Origin: Oehlia diaphana
Lineage: Eukaryota; Glomeromycota; Glomeromycetes; Glomerales; Glomeraceae
Reading direction: 5' to 3'
Assembly: GCA_003833135.1 (NCBI GenBank)
Contig: QZLH01000258.1
Span: 34,708-95,766, forward strand
Length of the DNA stretch: 61,059 nucleotides
The notes under the pieces were generated by a model, which saw only the letters and a program-made list of their open reading frames with translations, did no database searches and had not been told where the DNA came from. Every line of letters starts with the position of its first letter. Position 1 is the first letter of the stretch. This document shows positions 26,724 through 41,132 of the stretch, piece after piece. The translations under genes and the position numbers were made by a program.

Positions 26724-29700
26724 ATGGATGATAAAGGTTATAATCATATATATAATATAAACATTTAATATAGTTAGAATTCTAATATTTTTAAACAAAT
26801 TTACAATATAATAAAACTAGTTTCCAGTAATATTGAATTTGAAGGAAGCAGTTCTGAAGAATTTGAAGAAGGTGTTTCTGAAGAATTTGAGGGAATTAGC
26901 TCTGAGGAATTTGAGGAATTCAAAGAAAGTAGCGTTGTAGAATTTAGTATTGAGGAAACTAAAGGTATATTAAACATGCTAAAATACTAAATTTTTATTT
27001 GTAAATACATTTAAATACTATCTATAATTATACCTTACATAATAAACAAATATAGCTCGTAAGTTAATAGGTTATCTTATAATTGAATAATAATTGAATT
27101 ACTTATCAATTTTATTACATTTCATGTAATTGAATAATTCATTTAATGATTAATAATAATACTATAGTCAGTAAGTAATTAGTTATTTAAATTTTTAATT
27201 CTTTACCTTGTATATTTTACATAATATTCAAATAACTAAAATCTCTATTTAATAAATTATTTAATAATTAATTGTATTACAGATAGTAAGTTACAATATA
27301 ATATTTATTTTGCTTAATATTTTATATAACTCAACTAATTATATTCTTAATTTAACAACTAGAATGTAAGTGATATATTTATTTACAGTAAATACTATTA
27401 TATTATATTTGTATTTAACTAATAAATATTATAATACTAGGGTGTAAGTTATAGATATCTATATTTCTATTATTTATATAATTTAAACTAACTAAATTGT
27501 TTAATTATTTTGTAATTTATTTTAGTTGGTAAGTTATAAGTTATTTATTTTAATTCCATTGTTACTTATTGTTATATTATTTACATATAATTTAAACTAA
27601 CTAAATTCTATATTTAAATAGCTTGTAAGTTATAAGTTATTTATTAAATTCTATTACTTATTGTTATAATACATACATATGATTTAAACTAACTAAATTC
27701 TTTATTTAAAAATTATTTTATAGGTGGTAAGTTATTTATTTAATTCTATTATTACTTATTGTTACAACACTTACAACTAACTAAATTCTTTATTTAAATA
27801 GATTGTAAGTTATAAATTATTTATTCAATTCTATTATTACTTATTGTTATAATATTTACGTATAATTTAAACTAATTAAATTCTTTATTTAAATAGATCG
27901 TAAGTGATTAAGTTATTTATTTAATTCTATTATTACTTATTGTTATATAATTTACACATAATTTAAACTAACTAAATTCTTTATTTAAATAGATCGTAAG
28001 TTATTAAGTTATTTAATTCTATTATTACTTATTGTTATAATATTTACATTAATTTAAACTAACTAAATTCTTTATTCAAAACATTATTTAATAATATAGG
28101 GGGTAAGTTATTTATTTAATTACTATTATTACTTATTGTTATAATATTTACATTAAGTTAAACTAACTAAATTCTTTATTCAAAAATTATTTAATAATAT
28201 AGAGGGTAAGTTATTTATTTAATTCTATTATTACTTATTGTCATAATATTTACATATAATTTAAGCTAATTAAATTCTTTATTTAAAACATTATTTAATA
28301 ATATAGGGTGTAAGTTATTTATTTAATTCTATTATTACTTATTGTTATAATATTTACATATAATTTAAACTAAAAAATTTTTTATTTAAAAAATTATTTA
28401 ATAATATAGGGAGTAAGTTATTTATTTATTCTATTATTACTAATTGTTATAATTTTTACATATAATTTAAACTAACAAATTCTTTATTTAAAAAATTATT
28501 TTATAGCTAGTAAGTTATAAGTTATTTATTTAACTCTATTATTACTTATTGTTATAATATTTACATATAATTTAAACTAACTAAATCTTAATTTAAAAAA
28601 TTATTTAATAATATAGGTAGTAAGTTATTTATTTAATTCTATTATTACTTATTGTTATAATATTTACATATAATTTAACTAATTAAATTCTTTAATTATT
28701 TTGTAATTTCTTTTAGTTGGTAAGTTATAAGTTATTTATTTAATTCTATTATTACTTATTGTATAATATTTACATATAATTTAAACTAACTAAATTCTTT
28801 ATTTAAAAAATTATTTTATAGATAGTAAGTTATAAGTTATTTATTTAATTCTATTATTACTTATTGTTATAATACTTACATATAATTTGAACTAACTAAA
28901 TTCTTTATTTAAAAAATTATTTAATAATATAGGGGGTAAGTTATTTATTTAATTCTATTATTACTTATTGTTATAATATTTATATATAATTTAAACTAAC
29001 TAAATTCTTTAATTATTTTGTAATTTCTTTTAGTTGGTGAGTTATAAGTTATTTATTTTAATTCTATTATTACTTATTGTTATAATATTTACATTTAATT
29101 TAAATTCTTTATTTAAATAGATAGTAAGTTATAAGTTATTTATTCAATTCTATTATTACTTATTGTTATAATATTTATGTATAATTTAAACTAACTAAAT
29201 TCCTTAATTATTTTGTAATTTCTTTTAGTTGGTGAGTTATAAGTTATTTATTCATTTCTATCATTACTTATTGTTATAATATTTGCATATAATTTAACTA
29301 ACTAAATTCTTTATTTAAATAATTATTTAATAATATAGGGAGTAAATTATTTATTTATTCTATTATTACTTATTGTTATAATATTTATATATAATTTAAC
29401 TAACTAAATTCTTTATTTAAAAAATTATTTAATAATATAGAGAGTAAGTTATTTATTTAATTCTATTATTACTTATTGTCATAATATTTATATTTAATTT
29501 AAACTAACTAAATTCTTATTTAAAAAATTATTTAATAATATAGAGAGTAAGTTATTTATTCAATTCTATTATTACTTATTGTTATAATATTTAATATAAT
29601 TTAACTAACTAAATTTTTTATCTATAAAAATTATTTAATAATATAGCTTGTAAGTTATTTGTTGTTTCTATTGTTATATATTTTATAAATATTAATTTGT

Positions 29701-31090
29701 TAATTGAATTCTATTCATATAATTTTTCTTGTTACTTTAGTTAGTAAGTTGTGAAATATATGATATTATTATATGCATTCATACAAAAACTAATACATGT
29801 ATTGTATAAATTTCTATTTAAATCTTAAAGTAAGTGTTGATTTTAATCTTAAATTTAGTGTAATTTTAAATATAAATTTCTAATTATTTAATATATATAG
29901 ATTTGGAAAAAGTGGAAATACAATTATGGATGATTTTATTTTGAAAAATAATTTAAAATGGTTTCCTTATAATAAATTTAAAAATGTTGAATATCTTGAT
30001 AAAGGAGGATTTGGTACTATATACAAGGCTATATGGTCAATTTATGGTGAAGATTATGAAGCAATTCTTAAATGTCATAATAATCTAAATGAAGATTTAA
30101 ATGAATTTTTAAATGAAGTATGATAATATATTGATTTTTTAATTTGAATTATAAATTTATTAATACTAATATATTATTACTTTTTTATAGTGGGAATATC
30201 ATGCAAGATGTCCAACGAATAATATTATTAAGTTTTATGGGTTTACAAAAGATCCAGATACTTTGAAATATATGGCAGTAATGGATTATGCAAACAAAGG
30301 TAGTTTAAGAGAAAACTTAACAAGAATAATCAAAAGTGGTTGGTATCAAAAATTATATATGTTATTTGAAATTATTTCTGGACTTAATAATATACATAAA
30401 AAAAATCTTATTCATTGTGACTTTCATGATGGAAATATTTTAAATCATAATGAAAGAAAAATTTATATTAGTGATTTAGGATTATGTCAACCTGTAAAAT
30501 CATTTCTGAAAAAATATGATATTTATGGTGTTATACCATTTATGGCACCTGAAGTTTTAAGAGGTAAATCTTATACTCCAGCTAGTGATATATATAGTTT
30601 TTCTATGATTATGTGGGAATTTACATCTGGGGTACCACCATATAATAATAGAGCACATGATTTTCAACTTAGTTTAAAAATTTGTAAAGGTGAACGTCCT
30701 GAAATTATTGAAAATACTCCACAATGCTATGTAGATTTAATGAAAAAGTGTTGGAATGAAGATCCATTAAAAAGGTCATCATCTAATGAAGTGTACAATA
30801 TTATCGAGAAATGGGTTTATCCTCCTCTTAAAATAGAAAATATTAATCAAGAATTGAAATGCAATATTTTGAAATTCATAAATGCGCCAATTGAGCATAA
30901 CAATATTACTACTGAATTTCATTCACAAGCATGTTATACAAGTCGTTTACTTAACTTTACTAGTAAAGAATTGAATGATATCCTTGGAAGTGAAGATTCA
31001 CAAACTTATCATGCAAACTATTTTTCTACTGGTAAAACTGAAGATTTGGATGATTGTATAATTGAAGATATGAGTAATTTAGGTATGTAA
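26724..31090 (+). CDS. TKL-like kinase gene with an intron-saturated 5' part
   Basis: Proposed exons: 26724-26736 (MDDK; its GTTATA donor is weak), 26821-26964 (an acidic exon with SSEEFEE-type repeats), 28 microexons (27056-29743), 29901-30117 and 30191-31090. The last two encode GKSGNTIMDDFI, KWFPYNKF, a glycine loop DKGGFGTIYKA, AILKC, NEFLNE / WEYHARC, YGFTKDPDT, the catalytic loop LIHCDFHDGN (HCD), ISDLGLC (DLG), FMAPEV and a tail with YTSRLLNF. The strict 3-nt microexons carry phase 1 and run into a stop 14 codons into exon 29901. Extending the last microexon to 29750 (donor GTGAAA) restores the kinase frame, giving TFSKLFGKSGN and 454 aa in total. Alternatively translation of the kinase starts at ATG 29926. 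The kinase part is solid; the 5' structure is inference. Confidence 0.65.
26965..29900 (+). repeat. Array of 29 intron-like units separated by 3-nt exons
   Basis: Every boundary reads (T/C)AG-NNN-GT(A/G)AG or, once, GTAAAT. Triplet starts: 27056, 27168, 27283, 27363, 27441, 27526, 27622, 27724, 27802, 27897, 27993, 28100, 28203, 28307, 28410, 28507, 28617, 28717, 28822, 28933, 29034, 29121, 29229, 29339, 29441, 29544, 29647, 29741. Internal units are 75-112 bp. From about unit 6 on they share one body: GTAAGTTAT, then ATTACTTATTGTTATAATAT, then AAACTAACTAAATT, ending in A/T-rich sequence and TAG. CTAAC fits a fungal branch site. The first four or five units have unrelated bodies but the same boundaries. 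There are 17 different triplets with about 39% G+C in total, against very low G+C in the units. Variants correlate with unit subtype (TTTTAG is always followed by ttg), so some triplets were copied with their unit. Confidence 0.85.
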
Positions 31091-32679: not shown

Positions 32680-33080
32680 TTTACCAGAATTAATGATAAC
32701 TTCTAATTACTTATTTTGTAATTTGGACAAGTTTATTTTTTTTAATTTAATTGGCCAAAATTAGCCATAATTTTCAGTGAATTTTTTCTACCAGAATTAG
32801 TGATAAATTTTAATTGCTTTTTGGGGGTAAAAACCTAATTTAGAAGGTGGTAATACAAAATTACATTTTTGGTTTTGTTGGCCAAAATTAACCATAATTT
32901 TTTCAGTGAATGTTTTTTACCAAAATTAGTGATAAATTTTAATTACTTTTTTGGGTTAAAAACCTAATTTAGAAGGACGTAATACAAAATTACATTTTTG
33001 GTTTTATTGGCCAAAATTAATTATAATTTTCAGTGAATTTTTTTACCAGAATTAACGATAATTTTTAATTACTTTTTGAA
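32680..33080. repeat. Three imperfect tandem copies of a ~125-bp unit
   Basis: Each unit contains TTACCAGAATTAGTGATAAAT, AAAAACCTAATTTAGAAGG, TACAAAATTACATTTTTGG and TTGGCCAAAATTA. The last copy is partial. Noncoding. Confidence 0.75.
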
Positions 33081-39351: not shown

Positions 39352-41132
39352 ATGTCTAGTGATTCGAACACCATGTCTAATGATTCGATCAACTGGATTG
39401 ATAATGCTATTACTGAAATGCATATTAAATATTTCGATTATAAATTTTTTCGAAATATTGAAGAAATCGGTAAAGGTGGATTTGGTAAAATATACCGCGC
39501 AAATTGGAAAAATATGGAACGACATTTAGTATTAAAATCTCTTTTAGATATGAATCCTATCGCTGTTAAGGAACTTGCTCACGAGGTAATTATATATATA
39601 TATATTTTTTAATATTGAACTAATATATTTTTCGCTAAATATATATTTATAATATAGCTTAAACTTCATCGTGATGTCGACTTTCACGATAATATCATCA
39701 GTTTTTATGGAATAACGCAAGGTATAAACTATTCACTATAATACAATTATATTTTAGTTATTATTTTTAGCATTTACTTGAAAATTGTAAAAGTCTAATA
39801 AAATTTAAATCGTTTCCTAGAAAATTCAAATGATAAATCGAAAAGTTATTTGTTAGTTATGGAATATGCCGATGGTGGTACATTACAAAATTATTTGGAG
39901 AATAATTTCTTTTATCTTAATTGGAAGCATAAATATAACATGGCAAGTGAACTTGCCAGTGCAGTCTTATGTTTACATGATGAAGGAATTATCCATCGTG
40001 ATTTAGTAAGTTCTTTTACATTCATATTGTATATATTTGATAAATGATTAGAAATTAATAATTTATATTTTATAATAGCATTCTTGCAATGTATTAGTTC
40101 GTAATCATACTGTCAAATTGGCAGATTTTGGGCTTTCAAGAAGAATAGATGAAGCATCAAAAAGTACAGCGTTATTTGGCGTAATTCCATATATCGATCC
40201 AAAAAGATTCGGGAATATTAATAATAACGAAAAGAAGAAACAGATATATAAATTAAATGAGAAGAGCGATGTATATGGGATTGGTGTATTGTTATGGGTA
40301 ATATCAAGTGGTCAGCAACCCTTCGGTGGAATTAATAATTATAATCTTGATTTAATTATGGAAATTTCAAAAGGGTTGAGAGAAACTCCCATCCCTCATA
40401 CGCCAAGAGAATATGTAAATATTTATACTGGTAAGTAATGTCTAAGCTTAATTATAGAATATCTTAAAATGTTAAAATTTAGTATTAAATTTAGTAAATT
40501 TTTACTTTTTTTTTTTTATAGAATGTTGGAATGGCGAACCAGAAAAGCGCCCTACAATGCAACAAGTGGTTGCTAAATTAAAAACAATAAGATCAACAAC
40601 TGATACGATGCCAATAATTACTCCAATGTGTACTAGTCCCATACATGGAGATTTATCTTTATTAATGGATAAATTTGATCAAATGACTTTTGAATCCAAT
40701 GGTAGTAATGATTCAACTAACATAGAAACTACTAATGCCGATGGTGTCGGTTCAACAAACATAGAAACTACCAATGCCGATGGTGTCGGTTCAATCAACA
40801 TGGAAACTATTAATACCGATAGTATCAGTTCAGCCAATATAGAAACTATAAAAATACCATTTCCGCCCCAAATAACTGCTGAAGAAGTTTTAGATCGCAG
40901 CAAATACAAAGAAAGAAAAAAAGCTCCAAATAATTTTATGATATACCGTTTGGCGTATGCTAAGGAATTAAAGTCACAAAATATAAGCAATCTCAGTTCA
41001 TATAGTGTATCTGCTCTCGCAGCTTTAAAATGGAATAATGAACTTGATGAAGTAAAACAAGCGTATAAGGACATATCTGATAAAGTTCAAAGTAAATTAG
41101 ATGAAATTAGAACTTCCAGGGTATATGCTTGA
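39352..41132 (+). CDS. Kinase-HMG box fusion protein, copy 2
   Basis: Exons 39352-39585, 39658-39721, 39821-40005, 40079-40430 and 40522-41132 give 481 aa. Intron positions and phases match copy 1. The kinase has [16 protein letters not shown] (Lys kept), [16 protein letters not shown] hinge, IIHRDL/HSCNVL (full HRD with Asn), LADFGLSRR, IDPKRF and KRPTMQQVV. All key catalytic residues are present, so it is the better candidate of the pair for activity. The linker carries 3.5 copies of a 13-residue repeat (344-387). FPPQITAEEVL and the HMG box follow (about 410-468: [39 protein letters not shown]). The ATG context has a second in-frame Met at codon 8. Inference: a DNA-binding kinase or a transcription factor regulated in cis by its own kinase. 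Confidence 0.85.
40716..40853 (+). repeat. 39-bp coding minisatellite in copy 2
   Basis: Three and a half tandem units encode TNIETTNADGVGS, twice nearly exact, then diverged forms. The repeat is absent from copy 1, so the expansion post-dates the duplication. It lengthens the linker between the kinase and HMG domains in frame. Confidence 0.85.

Follow-up and report, generated by a model that had tools for sequence, protein, structure and literature searches.

Genes built from many very short exons have been described in Schistosoma, whose micro-exon genes (MEGs) carry 10-20 exons of 6-81 bp (3-81 in the abstract), mostly 15, with introns of up to 5 kb (PMC10526429), and exons as small as 1 nucleotide (nt) are known from plant APC11 and VPS55 (PMC4674806, PMC8831610) and of 3 bp from Drosophila homothorax (PMC7392893). 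Repeats of a different kind are found in the HNWD allorecognition genes of Podospora, where the paralogues of a fungal gene family carry very polymorphic copies that evolve in concert, both inside a gene and from one paralogue to another (PMC2873952), and in the introner-like elements of fungi, near-identical spliceosomal introns present in many copies (PMC4457414). In this work we describe a series of 28 three-base exon candidates in a 61,059-nt stretch of the genome of the glomeromycete fungus Oehlia diaphana (contig QZLH01000258.1, positions 34,708 to 95,766, hereafter the window), lying between an acidic exon and the exons of a protein kinase, together with its relatives in the same genome. 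We conclude that the array is very probably part of a real gene whose triplets would be spliced together and read in phase 1. Comparison of the sequences very strongly supports a micro-exon gene family taken to the extreme of one putative codon per exon, in which the introns are repeats and the codons hypervariable.

Like the Schistosoma MEGs (PMC10526429), these loci present many very short serial exon candidates, mostly multiples of three and difficult for automatic annotation, with 28 in the window and 6-71 over 25 arrays. They differ from the MEGs, as far as the excerpted account (PMC10526429) goes, in their tandem intron repeats and runs of exactly 3-nt exons. A secreted product is a further mark of micro-exon genes, and the protein kinase domain that follows here would speak against secretion. 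The plant and Drosophila cases indicate that exons of 1-3 nt are within reach of the spliceosome, the donors of the 1-nt exon in VPS55 reading GTRAGT (R, A or G), but each such exon is reported there singly and in an otherwise ordinary gene, whereas here dozens appear in series. As with HNWD, units are as similar between genes as within them and hypervariable sites occur, which here are putatively coding. The HNWD repeat, however, is itself coding (PMC2873952), whereas here homogenisation would affect the intron and diversity would reside in a 3-nt exon. There is also no sign of an HNWD-type STAND protein with WD repeats, since the kinase exons of the window gave only kinase-type families. Introner-like elements are scattered over many genes; the intron copies described here resemble them in being near-identical (divergence 0.083 within and 0.086 between arrays) but lie exactly 3 nt apart inside one gene family, a kinase following in all 21 arrays examinable, although unrelated genes were not searched systematically for intron copies. 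Such arrays were not found reported in the titles and abstract openings listed for the literature on microexons, tandem 3-nt exons, introners, R. irregularis kinases and annotation, and arbuscular mycorrhizal fungi, a scope that excluded preprints and most subscription papers.

Results

The array occupies positions 27056..29743 of the window (forward strand, as are all features below), where AG-NNN-GTRA occurs 28 times consecutively between the acidic exon and the protein kinase exon. The longer pattern AG-NNN-GTRAR is likewise present 28 times in the array region, compared with a mean of 0.23 and a maximum of 2 in 500 Markov sequences for the same region, and 28 of its 31 donor-like GTRART sites have AG exactly 3 nt upstream. 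Distances of 78-115 nt from junction to junction leave introns of 75-112 nt between the triplets, and 22 of these 27 introns contain CTAAY (Y, C or T), TTAAC or CTGAC, in 21 cases 25-46 nt before the intron end and in one at 11. The triplets are of 17 kinds and have 39.3% G+C within a surrounding region of 13.4%, and the edge units keep the AG-3-GT spacing despite their different bodies. A preliminary description of this DNA had reported the 28 junctions, the unit lengths, a CTAAC motif in most units (which we counted with a wider motif set), the composition of the triplets and the spacing shared by the unrelated first units, all of which we recovered. It had further read 28 stop-free codons in the phase of the preceding exon; no stop is indeed present, but the 28 triplets yield 27 codons. 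At one junction (27166/27170) an overlapping alternative reading gives TAA in place of TCA.

The genome (108.8 Mb, 1672 contigs) was searched with three queries, giving at least 446 matches for two array units (best 40 of 219 candidates scored), at least 40 places for the 3' edge (best 40 of 154) and at least 40 places, plus weaker matches within arrays, for the 5' edge (best 40 of 269). Merging the listed matches leaves at least 68 places with array units or edges, a count in which a gene split across two contigs would appear twice and some places are known by a single edge. Our sample consists of the window array and 24 others, some cut by contig ends or runs of N, which after trimming contain 649 junctions (6 to 71 per array) and 624 neighbouring triplet pairs; a kinase follows 143-178 nt past the last triplet in 21 of the 25, and the other four meet N runs or a contig end. 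As finding junctions by motif only is circular, the spacing was retested from the intron body with AG not required, and AG lay exactly 3 nt before the donor at 461 of 496 places, the other 35 comprising, by eye, some places outside arrays, some donors misplaced by the script and some decayed units. Variation at these places amounts to 0.23 and 0.44 bit in the A and G columns and to 1.46-1.93 bits in those of the triplet; near-invariance is also seen in the donor columns but is biased, the donor having been placed by best match. A smaller check of 139 places gave spacing 3 in 102, spacing 1 in 18, no donor in 15 and other outcomes in 4, and the 18, not checked singly, are taken as a counting effect of triplets starting with AG.

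What would distinguish translation from a neutral minisatellite is a frame-dependent link between triplets that lie an intron apart. In phase 1, which is the phase at the end of the acidic exon and likewise of the short ATG exon of one relative (L028), a stop arises wherever a T-ending triplet precedes AA, AG or GA. Only two such stops occur among the 624 neighbour pairs, against a mean of 22.1 and a minimum of 8 in 5000 within-array shuffles, while the phase-2 control has 99 against a mean of 82.6. The same depletion holds for distinct pairs only (2 of 309, 12.8 expected, minimum 4) and for inner units only (0 of 452, 15.1 expected, minimum 4), with TAG the most depleted codon (0, 12.5 expected), and the mirrored order of the same triplet kinds, which forms no stop, occurs 20 times. 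These three comparisons rule out block duplication as the cause. Over the 25 arrays AGN and GGN stand at 0 to 50 after a T-ending triplet and at 54 to 86 after others (Fisher P 2.5e-9, with test units not fully independent through tandem duplication). Six junction choices gave 0-3 phase-1 stops against means of 17-22; one choice gave none in 554 with L040, L035, L033 and L027 excluded, which is not independent because those loci include both stop-bearing arrays, namely L040, whose kinase also holds a stop, and L027, which is cut by a contig end. Excluding the window leaves the family result unchanged (2 of 597). Two arrays were fetched later: L065 has no phase-1 stop in 27 pairs and two mirrored pairs (no shuffle run), and L066 has only 7 junctions, 3 of them with unusual donors, and says little. 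Translation of the joined triplets would predict just such a dependence, reaching across a whole intron in a single frame and direction, and we found no other cause for it.

A further point, absent from the preliminary description, concerns the way into the kinase. Since the acidic exon leaves in phase 1 while phase 2 is required at the first kinase exon, the 28 triplets alone cannot join both in frame, and a direct splice from 26964 to 29901 is likewise out of frame. About 85 nt past the last triplet a candidate one-base exon is present in 20 of the 21 arrays examinable (L025, L027, L041 and L042 were not), as AG-A-GTAA in 19 and AG-A-GTTAGT in L043. Among 20 further 3' ends, fetched after the exon was noticed but by a query containing the site, it is found in 19 (18 AG-A-GT and one AG-A-GC, in L050), L053 lacking it. 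When the one-base exon is included, 17 of 19 testable arrays read without a stop into the first kinase exon, L035 and L040 failing, whereas without it all 19 show 4-8 stops; six of the 25 arrays were not usable in this test. In L022 a single frame of 439 codons opens with an ATG, passes through 40 triplets and reaches the kinase end, 3 of its 43 chain junctions (GC or poor donors) having been excluded, and including them gives no stop either.

The triplets are also the variable part of an otherwise homogeneous unit. In 385 aligned inner units, selected for AG-NNN-GT, body columns mostly show 93-98% consensus and triplet columns 38-56%, and the contrast is the same when units are found with AG not required, although all positions of a neutral minisatellite should vary alike. 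Triplet bases differ at 52% in 156 unit pairs whose flanks differ by more than 0 to 2%, and at 36% in 14 pairs with identical flanks (gaps ignored, only pairs with enough common short words, pairs not independent). Unit pairs diverge by 0.075 within and 0.080 between arrays, and the inner introns (units of 90-112 nt), with the means of 0.083 and 0.086 given above, are closer mutually than are, in these genes, the edge introns (0.105-0.132) or the start of the kinase exon (0.116). For close pairs (up to 2%) the triplet is identical in 13 of 22 within one array and in 11% of 148 between arrays; plain tandem duplication thus copies the triplet too, as the preliminary description had cautioned in noting that some triplets are copied with their unit subtype. 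It had also held that translation would be contradicted if the triplets evolved at a higher rate than coding constraint allows and without regard to it. Within this genome their variation does greatly exceed that of the introns, yet it is tied to coding. Its idea that introns multiplied until nearly each codon became its own exon gains support from the frame-dependent neighbour triplets over the 25 arrays.

A mutation hot spot at each AG-NNN-GT is disfavoured, as some edge triplets are stable among paralogues (all 9 with one acceptor type have ATT, and 9 of 12 with a second type have TTG) though the edge introns differ by 10-13%. Strong constraint keeping the intron bodies alike is disfavoured as well, because variation is small and much the same in most body columns and because introns with unrelated inserts of about 60-480 nt keep their ends. 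The likeliest account combines frequent unit turnover, exchange between genes and selection for different codons, and a process spreading the intron without its codon is a possible alternative. Inserts of this kind, single introns being affected, were seen in L024, L025, L030, L031, L032, L034, L038, L039, L041 and L042, with splice ends mostly intact; some resemble mobile elements common to several arrays, and those of L025 and L030 have the stretches 'GGGACATTT' and 'GCCATTTC' in common. L022, L031, L037 and L044 contain a few junctions with a GC donor, and AAGT mostly comes next, which matches ordinary GC-AG introns. Damage to kinases was also observed, with a stop in the kinase exon of L040, whose array holds one stop too, and a frame break in L035.

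In the window the probable first coding exon (26724..26736) reads ATGGATGATAAAG, that is MDDK plus one base, and leaves in phase 1; its L043 counterpart fits the deposited protein P0076 with the same structure. A frame shift suspected between this exon and the acidic exon was resolved by the acceptor ACTAG-TTTC, which fits P0076. The acidic exon (26821..26964, 144 nt, SSNIEFEGSSSEEFEEGVSEEFEG...) has phase 1 both in and out by frame reading. It contains a 24-nt tandem repeat at 26835-26918 encoding EEFEGSSS-like units, and with lengths of 51-144 nt among paralogues it forms a second variable-length region directly 5' of the array. The first array intron (26965..27055, GTATAT...AG) has a body differing from the repeated units. 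The triplets start at 27056 CTC, 27168 TCA, 27283 ATA, 27363 AAT, 27441 GGT, 27526 TTG, 27622 CTT, 27724 GTG, 27802 ATT, 27897 ATC, 27993 ATC, 28100 GGG, 28203 AGG, 28307 GGT, 28410 GGA, 28507 CTA, 28617 GTA, 28717 TTG, 28822 ATA, 28933 GGG, 29034 TTG, 29121 ATA, 29229 TTG, 29339 GGA, 29441 AGA, 29544 AGA, 29647 CTT and 29741 TTA, for which the predicted phase-1 peptide is ALNKWFACDYHREGWTSIDRVDIGKKTF; the part with similar intron bodies (27806..29693) is a 103-nt tandem repeat of 18.5 copies with 81% matches.

At 29829..29829, the site of the one-base exon 'A' of the paralogues (AG-A-GTAAGT), the acceptor of the window is AA and the exon has probably been lost, and a possible substitute one-base exon 'T' (TTTAG-T-GTAATT, 29859..29859) would give the right frame but leave a 41-nt intron. 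The first kinase exon (29901..30117), which begins A-TTT GGA AAA AGT... and encodes FGKSGNTIMDDFILKNNLKW...GGFGTIYKA, matched no Pfam family on its own (72 amino acids), while the second (30191..31090) matched PF07714 (E 1.2e-34) and PF00069 (E 7.3e-33) and contains HCDFHDGNIL, DLGLC and APE, which we take to be kinase motifs; the kinase is presumably of the TKL type. Homologues occur in Rhizophagus irregularis, R. diaphanus and R. clarus among the matches listed. Two more tandem repeats lie in the window, one of 129 nt (32739-33078, 2.7 copies) 3' of the kinase gene and one of 39 nt (40712-40848, 3.5 copies), a multiple of three and possibly coding.

Discussion

If the triplets are translated, around 30 short AT-rich introns would each be removed and the intervening three-base exons joined, each phase-1 codon combining the third base of a triplet with the first and second bases of the triplet after it, and the one-base exon would then set the frame of the protein kinase. 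The product would begin with an acidic segment, continue with a linker to which each unit contributes about one residue, and then have a kinase domain. Whenever units are duplicated, lost or shuffled, the linker would change by single residues, with the neighbouring codon recoded too, and since a unit is a whole intron plus three bases its turnover would never break the frame. We infer that every intron is taken out by the spliceosome, that the mature transcript contains all or most units and that selection favours linker diversity.

Several observations weigh against this reading. To our knowledge, splicing of dozens of 3-nt exons has never been shown. The window and L053 have AA as the acceptor of the one-base exon; both possess TTTAG-T-GTAATT slightly downstream, which could substitute for it at the cost of an intron of about 41-43 nt, and the window's own gene may be spliced differently or dying. 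Within unit subtypes of at least 10 members the third triplet base is the most variable in 6 of 8 and the second the least variable in 6 of 8, a pattern that resembles purifying selection in phase 0, the third-base variability of 0.35-0.73 being several times that of the introns. Independence would predict 10 TAN and 46 TGN triplets, but only 1 and 10 are present, a shortage that phase 1 does not explain. Intron-less retrocopies are not in excess, with 18 against 17 for the reversed pattern, and the phase-1 N-terminus of L022 matched no deposited protein (E 0.001), a search with 43 candidates scored that says little. Lastly, deposited models disagree. P0024 of R. diaphanus repeats most triplets of L034 in order plus, by eye, the kinase start, and reads most of them in phase 0, which it enters via another frame of the acidic exon and seems to leave, again by eye, through a 5-base exon AGTAA with a weak donor. 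P0076, also of R. diaphanus, matches L043 at 99.3% over 298 residues and its first 78 residues fit L043 exactly when exon 1 and the acidic exon are joined to ten phase-1 exons of 3 nt, yet this best fit uses 10 of 31 triplets, enters the kinase exon late and has no one-base exon, and other placements may fit equally well. These two protein matches indicate that the genome belongs to R. diaphanus or a very close relative. As phase and skipping vary from gene to gene we take the deposited models to be gene-prediction products, and database N-termini of this kinase family look unreliable, since models thread the arrays differently (L034/P0024, L043/P0076).

What P0076 seems to skip would suit recursive or decoy splicing, where each AG-NNN-GT acts as a stepping stone and the triplets are lost again or occasionally included, and it is well established that 3-nt exons are generally hard to include. 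Frequent skipping would, however, make other neighbour pairs, and stop avoidance between direct neighbours implies that neighbours are usually joined; we regard this explanation as improbable. A single large intron holding a minisatellite, with AG-NNN-GT kept by common descent and the triplets never translated, is in our view very improbable. Kinship between most units is plain, some triplets are inherited along with a unit subtype, and splicing the acidic exon straight to the one-base exon keeps the frame, but such an intron leaves unexplained why neighbours avoid stops in one frame and one direction only, why variation in an otherwise homogeneous unit peaks at the triplet while the adjoining AG is nearly fixed, and why edge units with unrelated bodies have the same spacing.

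That each triplet is instead spliced and translated in phase 0 as one codon strikes us as hardly credible, even though P0024, P0007, P0008, P0081, P0117 and P0118 look so by eye (among 120 listed of 1470 homologues), stops make up only 4 of 649 triplets and many of the differences between triplets of one subtype would be synonymous. When read in its acidic frame, the acidic exon leaves in phase 1, and the exit exon AGTAA has a donor that is neither GT nor GC in L035 and only GC in L033; TGA accounts for 3 of 10 TGN triplets, so that no stop avoidance is visible (in small numbers), and the gap of AGN after T-ending triplets is not predicted. Five of those six phase-0-like models are from R. irregularis, which suggests that arrays also exist there.

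Conclusions

Joining of the triplets in phase 1, as we favour it, would give a linker that is rewritten unit by unit. We would tentatively go further and suggest, as a real possibility, a codon-diversifying system inside introns: one-codon exons would store a variable peptide, intron copies would be spread or homogenised across dozens of genes without their codons, and shuffling of units would write the peptide residue by residue, perhaps for self/non-self or partner recognition by the kinases of this arbuscular mycorrhizal fungus. If the triplets are indeed spliced in the way that stop avoidance suggests, the spliceosome of this fungus can join dozens of 3-nt exons and a 1-nt exon per transcript, far beyond the cases known to us, and current Rhizophagus gene models would be wrong at the N-termini for part of a large kinase family. 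These genes would then offer a natural system for the study of tiny-exon recognition, intron multiplication and gene growth by single codons.

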